Below the pieces are notes generated by a model. That model searched no databases, was not told the DNA's origin, and saw only the letters and a program-made list of their open reading frames with translations. A stretch of 64,000 nt of DNA from Candidatus Gastranaerophilales bacterium. GTDB lineage: Bacteria; Cyanobacteriota; Vampirovibrionia; Gastranaerophilales; Gastranaerophilaceae. Position numbers and translations under genes: made by a program. The DNA lies in assembly GCA_944326525.1 (NCBI GenBank), contig CALVEG010000004.1, positions 1-64,000 on the forward strand, in the 5' to 3' direction. Below, in pieces: positions 46,841 to 47,935 of this stretch; positions within the stretch are counted from its first letter, which is position 1, and each line of letters opens with the position of its first letter.

Positions 46841-46956
46841 TTTTTCTCTCTCCTAATTTTCATATAACAAACTAATACTATCACAAAAATAGTTTGCAAA
46901 AACCTAATTTATATGCTAAAATAGAAAAGTTAATAATTAATCATTGGAGGTTTGAA

Positions 46957-47758
46957 ATGCAGACTATAACTGAATTACAGCAAGGGGGGGGGGGCATCTG
47001 ATTCTAAATATTTTAAGGTAATAAACGTAGGATTTACATTAGCAGAAGTTTTGATAACGATTGGAATATTAGGGGTAGTTATTGCTATGACTTTACCCGC
47101 TATTATTGGTAGCTACAAAGAAAAAGCCGCTACTACTCAATTAAAGAAAACTTATTCAATATTATCCCAAACTTTTAATCGAATAGTAAGTGAAACTGGC
47201 GCTGATCCCCGTGGTTGGGGCATGGGAGATATGTATGACGCAAACTCTCATATAATCATGGCTAATCAATTTGTTCCGTATTTGAATATTATGTACAATT
47301 GTGTTGGGAAAGATTTAGCATATACAAAAAAACATTGTATTGATAATCCTGATTATTCTAATCCAATTTATTCTGCAAATGTAAGATTAATGGATGGTAC
47401 AACTCTAAATTTTAGAAACTGGCACTCTAATTGCAACGGTAAATACGGAAATAATAAATATCTGCAAAATGTTTGTGGATCTATAAAGGTAGATATAAAT
47501 GGACAAAAAAATCCTAATTTATATGGAAATGATATATTTTCTTTCTATATGACAACTTACGGAATCTATCCGATGGGTACAGAATTTGAAACCAAATTAA
47601 CTTTTAGTGATTATTGTGATAAAACAAAAGGTTGGGGAACTATGTATAATGATTACAACAACGGCGCGGGCTGCACTGCTTGGGTAATATATAACGAAAA
47701 TATGGATTATCTCAAATGCTCCGGACTAAATTGGGGCGGAAAAAAGAAGTGTAAATAA
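46957..47758 (+). pseudogene. Type IV prepilin-like gene interrupted by a poly-G frameshift
   Basis: From ATG 46957 (TTGGAGG 8 bases upstream) the frame runs through an 11-G tract (46984-46994) and stops at 46999 after 14 codons. If one G is removed it continues without a break as MQTITELQQ-GGG-A-SDSKYFKVINVGFTLAEVLITIGILGVVIA, a prepilin leader with G|FTLAE cleavage site and hydrophobic helix, then a 200-residue pilin body with paired Cys and many Trp/Tyr/Gly. The protein would be exported and assembled into a type IV pilus or pseudopilus. The open part after the tract is 47051-47758. The tract may be a phase-variation switch, a one-base sequencing error or decay. A 17-bp terminator follows. 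Confidence 0.72.
46984..46994 (+). repeat. Mononucleotide tract of 11 G in a prepilin gene
   Basis: Eleven G residues in AT-rich surroundings, inside the 5' end of the prepilin frame. Ten or thirteen G would give an intact gene; eleven stops it. This is typical of phase-variable contingency loci. Confidence 0.85.
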
Positions 47759-47783
47759 CTGTTCCAATCTTTTTAAACTATGC

Positions 47784-47821
47784 AATAATTAAGGTGCGTC
47801 GTTTGACGCACCTTAATTATT
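47784..47821. terminator. Strong intrinsic terminator, 17-bp stem
   Basis: AATAATTAAGGTGCGTC (47784-47800) and its perfect complement (47805-47821) flank a GTTT loop, after the prepilin gene. Confidence 0.85.
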
Positions 47822-47935
47822 GGAGTTCTTTCTATAAAACAATGGTATATAGTAAACTCTCAAAATTATATATTTTACAAAAAGTGATTTTTGTTTTATC
47901 CTTTGAAAAAAGTTAAGTAAAAGGAGAGAGAAATT

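Follow-up and report, generated by a model that had tools for sequence, protein, structure and literature searches.

How can a pilin gene be maintained when its start codon leads almost nowhere? At one locus of a Gastranaerophilales genome (1.95 Mb, 27 contigs, 98% complete), translation from a well-placed start codon would pass a run of 11 G and end after 14 codons, and an intact prepilin-like frame lies behind the run in another register. We examined this locus in the window, the whole 64-kb stretch of DNA that was analyzed (GC 34%), and in related genomes. Gastranaerophilales are common, largely uncultured gut relatives of cyanobacteria, and little is known of their contact with the host. 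The features of the locus are the following.

46894 to 46922, + strand: sigma-70-like promoter candidate, TTGCAA-17-TAAAAT with TG ahead of the -10 (consensus match only)
46946 to 46950, + strand: Shine-Dalgarno GGAGG, 6 nt 5' of the ATG (from the sequence)
46957 to 47001, + strand: short frame from the ATG, MQTITELQQGGGGI then TGA, the prepilin N-terminal leader (from the sequence and orthologues)
46984 to 46994, + strand: homopolymeric tract G11, the proposed switch (equal length in orthologues L152 and L153)
46997 to 47758, + strand: prepilin frame with the leader remainder, G/F cleavage site (47030-47035), hydrophobic helix, pilin body and stop
47783 to 47822, + strand: terminator-like hairpin with an 18-pair stem (shuffle mean 0.3 such sites)

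The initial annotation described a prepilin frame that opens with a good ribosome site, crosses an 11-G run and stops 14 codons in. We recovered each of these elements: GGAGG at 46946-46950, the ATG at 46957, G11 beginning nine codons after it, and TGA at 46999-47001 (ATG CAG ACT ATA ACT GAA TTA CAG CAA GGG GGG GGG GGC ATC TGA). The prepilin frame, from 46997, reads SDSKYFKVINVG/FTLAEVLITIGILG... (the slash marks the cleavage site) and runs for 253 codons to a TAA at 47756-47758. The two frames join with one G fewer or two more, confirming the claim that 10 or 13 G would restore read-through into an intact leader and pilin body. Between the tract and the cleavage site, the pilin frame contains no ATG, GTG or TTG, so an ordinary downstream start cannot rescue the gene. 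We observe here both the anatomy and its dependence on the tract: a unit change at this position toggles the frame and no start bypasses it, as required of a switch.

The tract is also longer than chance predicts, as expected of a homopolymer that drives phase variation. The window holds four 8-G matches, all within this tract, where shuffles average 0.11 and never give as many as four. Beyond G11 it has no G-run above 5 (the next longest is 5) and no C-run longer than 5. The neighbors of the gene are a divergent, unrelated gene and one resembling dapB. Its promoter candidate lies 34 nt 5' of the ATG, in a region with 8 promoter-type matches where 6.6 are expected. With a promoter candidate of its own and a strong 3' hairpin, it looks like a single-gene unit.

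The protein carries the prepilin motif, namely a short leader with a final G, then FTxxE and a hydrophobic segment (G/FTLAEVLITIGILGVV), and so meets the sequence criterion for a prepilin. Matches to profiles of the N_methyl/IV_pilin motif fall below the curated cut-offs (TIGR02532, 15.5 bits for a cut-off of 16.3; PF07963, 16.3 bits for 21.2). An AlphaFold2 model built with 30 relatives has an N-terminal helix (15-67) and a beta-rich head at a pLDDT of 88, the architecture sought for a prepilin, and the C-terminal signature WVIYNENMDYL is conserved among these relatives together with several cysteines. A Foldseek search of the pilin head against solved structures returned no match with E<1, a missing match that is not evidence of a different fold. 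The product is thus predicted to be type IV prepilin-like; its cleavage and assembly remain putative, and the model does not distinguish a major pilin from a minor pilin or a pseudopilin.

The closest orthologues, found in two related species (L152 in G005 and L153 in G011), share 86-88% protein identity with the window gene. Both have a nearly identical leader, 11 G and the same out-of-frame phase, with short frames MQTITELQRGGGGTRF and MQTMTELQRGGGGTRF, respectively, each ending at a stop. The 253-codon pilin frame is intact in all three species, and its body shows dN ~0.07, dS 0.17-0.40 and dN/dS ~0.17-0.39. Although out of frame, the pilin body is thus conserved by purifying selection.

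We then asked how widely this arrangement occurs. The pattern counted was RBS, ATG, about 10 codons, poly-G and prepilin leader, with the reversed pattern as a control. Only stretches around tracts were read, and loci of the genus and family were sampled, not exhausted. A script assigned each locus its start codon (the RBS-linked one) and its main frame (the longest one following the tract), and the phase given for an individual locus may therefore be wrong. A second prepilin-like gene in the window's genome has an equivalently placed G11, in frame (C1:35628). Across the genus, a pattern of RBS, ATG, short spacer and poly-G is found in 13 of 14 species, and in the 14 genomes tracts of 10 G or more number 327, while just 13 have exactly 9. 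The family yields 886 start-proximal poly-G sites and 48 reversed-pattern sites, and 85 of its 170 genomes are positive. These 85 are also the only positives among the 192 genomes of the order, the start-proximal pattern being absent from all 22 genomes of other families. Positive genomes carry up to dozens of such sites, and the frame behind the tract has a prepilin motif at 164 of 177 tabulated loci. Both the recurrence of the tract and its placement are thus observed. The initial annotation spoke of a single pilin gene: its reading of a phase-variable gene holds, and its "one gene" does not, since a large repertoire was found.

Within a genome, the start modules (RBS, ATG, 6-14 codons, poly-G) are near-uniform, as in ATGAAAAAGCAGACTATGATTGAAATTCA-G12-CAACCCGTAAAACAGGCTCCTG of G003; those of different genera are unrelated. 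In three genomes (G194, G182 and G117), the pilin retains a Met directly 5' of the leader, which is missing from some copies. Judged from the sequences, this looks as if a module had been placed ahead of an existing prepilin gene.

Several other tracts were noted along the way. In the window's genome, an acyltransferase-3-like membrane protein carries an equivalently placed, start-proximal run of 10 G in frame (G000:C11:35743-35752; L009 2744-2753), and one in another species (L119, G002) has 14 G, out of frame. Other G9-G10 runs of this genome are not start-proximal (G000:C1:314488, C2:1106, C2:162778 and C3:131782). In G085, a recurrent start module, CGCATGAATAGTGCATTTGC-G12, has no long prepilin frame behind it (L297-L305); these are possibly orphaned modules. 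In loci of G003 and G008 (e.g., L076, L087 and L142), 40-230 in-frame codons separate the tract from the prepilin motif; they are rich in sequence derived from palindromic repeats (HSGLDPESIN etc.) and form an odd leader for a prepilin. At some of these loci, an RBS-like site accompanies an internal ATG. A poly-G tract directly adjoins mutS in three species (G003:C4:139 kb, G007:C8:27.5 kb and G013:C1:335 kb), that of G003 including a prepilin start module. Finally, one cluster (L131, G006:C8:21281-25008) contains two DNA methyltransferase-like genes with a G-run at an equivalent internal site: 10 G leave the frame of one intact (FSGSGTT follows), and 12 G break that of the other, a possible case of phase-variable methylation.

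Is the phase of these tracts random? Only 26 of 197 loci (13%) are in frame, or ON, where random phases would give 33% (binomial P ~2e-10, ignoring the non-independence of paralogues). Weighting the 177-locus set by its 73 leader classes leaves 10.5 of 73 ON and divides the OFF phases into 35.7 and 26.8 (~36:27). Both off-frames stop early, at a median of 3 and 5 codons against codon-shuffle means of 12 and 9.5, and a usable internal start is absent from 87 of 87 short-leader loci. Differences in tract length are observed as well. The number of G differs without any flank gap in 16 of 80 pairs whose 40-nt flanks are both at least 80% identical; in G002, for example, L015 has 11 G and L123 has 12 with flanks 100% and 97% identical, and near-identical copies in G182 have 9, 10 and 12. 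What is apparently one gene in three species (L010/L116/L118) has 11, 11 and 12 G, that is, ON, ON and OFF. Length variation is seen elsewhere in the system; the window gene keeps 11 G in each of the three species where it was compared. As far as sequences can tell, early stops, missing internal starts and G-number differences within intact flanks are the marks of a frame switch.

Besides the large repertoire, a second point goes beyond the initial annotation or against it: OFF consensus states greatly exceed chance expectation, with one OFF phase dominating in the genus. The ORF lies in the +1 frame of the ATG at 87 of 109 genus loci of the first table, and one G fewer is needed at 30 of 32 loci in G003 and at 15 of 20 newly read loci in G010. 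Elsewhere in the family the opposite phase, needing one more G, prevails (14 of 16 loci in G049, 4 of 4 in G194 and 5 of 7 in G182). Tracts of one genome also tend to have similar lengths: 12 G in most of the genus, 10 in G049 and 9 in G194. One-sided phases and uniform lengths count against simple random switching and a freely slipping tract.

This bias is what makes recoding the most serious rival. Programmed +1 ribosomal frameshifting or transcript slippage could join the two frames, making the 11-G form a working gene with a fixed low output instead of an on/off switch. Slippage of transcripts at such runs is well established, as cited in PMC9187656. The dominance of one phase, in the first-table loci of the genus as in G010, would suit such a mechanism, as would the persistence of the phase in G003 where an edge substitution alters the count (CA-G12 versus C-G13), the phase common to all three window-gene species with their conserved ORFs, and the very early end of the ATG frame behind the tract. 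The phase is reversed in other genera, however, and the leader-class-weighted OFF phases stand at 36:27. Codons behind the tract are not conserved either (AUC UGA, CCG UAA, AAA UAA and GUA UAG). A prfB-like device should have a phase fixed across the lineage, which holds largely within the genus and is reversed in G049, G194 and G182, and a conserved slippery codon and stop behind the tract, which are not found because leader classes differ. In-frame copies occur, and phase uniformity within a genome can reflect one copied leader and a common modal length. Universal programmed +1 frameshifting, suggested by the one-phase genus loci, is ruled out by the opposite-phase genera and survives only as a rival. 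We rate recoding at the window gene as unlikely, and the dominance of one OFF phase in its genus means that it cannot be dismissed. Slightly more doubtful still is its broad form, in which ribosomal frameshifting or RNA-polymerase slippage would keep dozens of consensus-OFF prepilins per genome expressed at a constant low level, and the length of the tract would adjust how much is made; if it were true, G-run recoding would be a genome-wide recoding device doubling as a mutational switch.

Two simpler readings would make the consensus itself misleading or the gene dead. Poly-G is difficult for Illumina, with "G's end" artefacts (PMC9187656), and several contigs terminate at such tracts, so the true tract might be in frame and the consensus off by one, a caveat that the initial annotation had raised. 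It proposed comparing relatives, where a uniform in-frame 10 G would have pointed to such an error; G005 and G011 instead have 11 G out of frame. Since length and phase recur in separate assemblies of these two other species, a consensus error is unlikely. Among the hundreds of tracts, which come from different projects, most are out of frame, some in one direction and some in the other, and assembler mistakes would not position tracts behind start codons. The caveat is largely refuted, if not wholly, and we give it very little weight. A decaying pseudogene fixed out of frame would likewise explain why all three species have an OFF consensus. The frame of a dead gene would not have lasted, though, and here the 253 codons are intact and of equal length in all three, with the low dN/dS given above; the RBS and promoter candidate are retained, and frames are open in nearly all other copies. 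Decay is accordingly just as improbable.

We consider slipped-strand phase variation of a large prepilin repertoire, mostly OFF in the consensus, to be the probable explanation. G11 would act as a contingency switch between the start codon and the leader of a type IV prepilin-like protein: adding or dropping a single G would bring the ATG frame into or out of register with the pilin, and the cell would make either the pilin or a 14-residue peptide. The window gene, alone with its promoter candidate and terminator and OFF in the assembled consensus, would be one part of a family-wide system of Gastranaerophilales gut bacteria, in which each genome would set its own near-uniform start module ahead of different prepilin genes, from a few up to several dozen. 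The one-sided phase in the genus can be put down to descent from one copied leader with a common tract length of 12. The earlier proposal of a likely phase-variable pilin is supported by the same-placed tracts across the family, their length variation, the coexistence of ON and OFF copies and purifying selection. Switching itself was unobserved: reversible slippage within populations, an effect on pili or expression and a benefit in the gut are all inferred. With one genome per species, our data measure no within-species variation, and the comparison relatives of established origin are all metagenome-assembled, which we counted against this explanation.

Other routes to the same pattern were rejected. 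Hypermutability through loss of mismatch repair is not the driver, because mutS1 is present in all 14 genus genomes. Neither the window gene nor any of the 87 short-leader loci has an alternative start in the pilin frame. DNA inversion of the start region between RBS-complementary repeats would leave reversed (poly-C) copies, and none occurs among the tabulated tracts. A hairpin between SD and anti-SD as the main mechanism is absent from the window gene and most other genera. In most genus leaders, the RBS could pair with a stretch that follows the tract (on average 5.8 complementary bases, versus 5.4 swapped and 4.2 base-shuffled). At L122, L129, L142 and L344-L363, this stretch lies 15-20 nt behind the G-run (AGGAGCU and variants), and some such leaders show matching changes (AGGAGAG/CTCTCCT, AGAGG/CCTCT). 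An RNA hairpin over the ribosome site is possible at those genus loci, on the strength of base complementarity alone.

The mechanism is already known. In the AT-rich genomes of Campylobacter and Helicobacter, G8-G13 tracts occur by the dozen in genes for surface structures; most of these genes concern glycans or adhesins, and they share no start module. The system described here resembles them in its AT-rich genome and its many poly-G tracts in surface genes, and differs in that the window's genus keeps MutS1 and has a common start module. The closest cases are the pilus G-tracts of Bifidobacterium breve and Neisseria pilC. The sortase-dependent pili of B. breve UCC2003 are under a G-tract switch (bbr_0113 and bbr_1889) at which slippage was measured, ON being minus one G, plus multiples of three (PMC9187656). 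There too, in a gut commensal, G11/G12 in the first pilin gene parts the signal-peptide frame from the pilin frame, the second frame has no active start, and ON needs one G fewer. B. breve, however, is an actinobacterium with LPXTG sortase pili and one or two loci per genome, whereas here the genes are type IV prepilin-like, number up to dozens per genome and have a common start module. Neisseria pilC likewise has a G/C homopolymeric tract that turns the frame of a type IV pilus component ON or OFF (PMC5953494 and its ref. 40); PilC modulates pilus retraction, has at most two copies, is not the pilin subunit and belongs to a pathogen lineage. Neisseria pilE/pilS also offers a big repertoire of variant pilins of which few are expressed (PMC5953494), but it recombines into one expressed locus, while in the present system start and switch are separate for every gene.

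In the literature searched, we found no description of a poly-G-gated prepilin system in Gastranaerophilales. What appears new is the lineage, how many type IV prepilin-like genes share one kind of leader, and the marked OFF bias. If our explanation is true, most of these genes go unannotated or are cut short in automated annotation, and existing gut metagenome reads suffice to measure switching in people and animals. The common start module within a genome raises the testable question of how one regulatory leader reached dozens of different genes. Since most prepilins would be OFF at any moment, many combinations of surface fibres would coexist in a population, and the surface fibres of Gastranaerophilales would differ from cell to cell.
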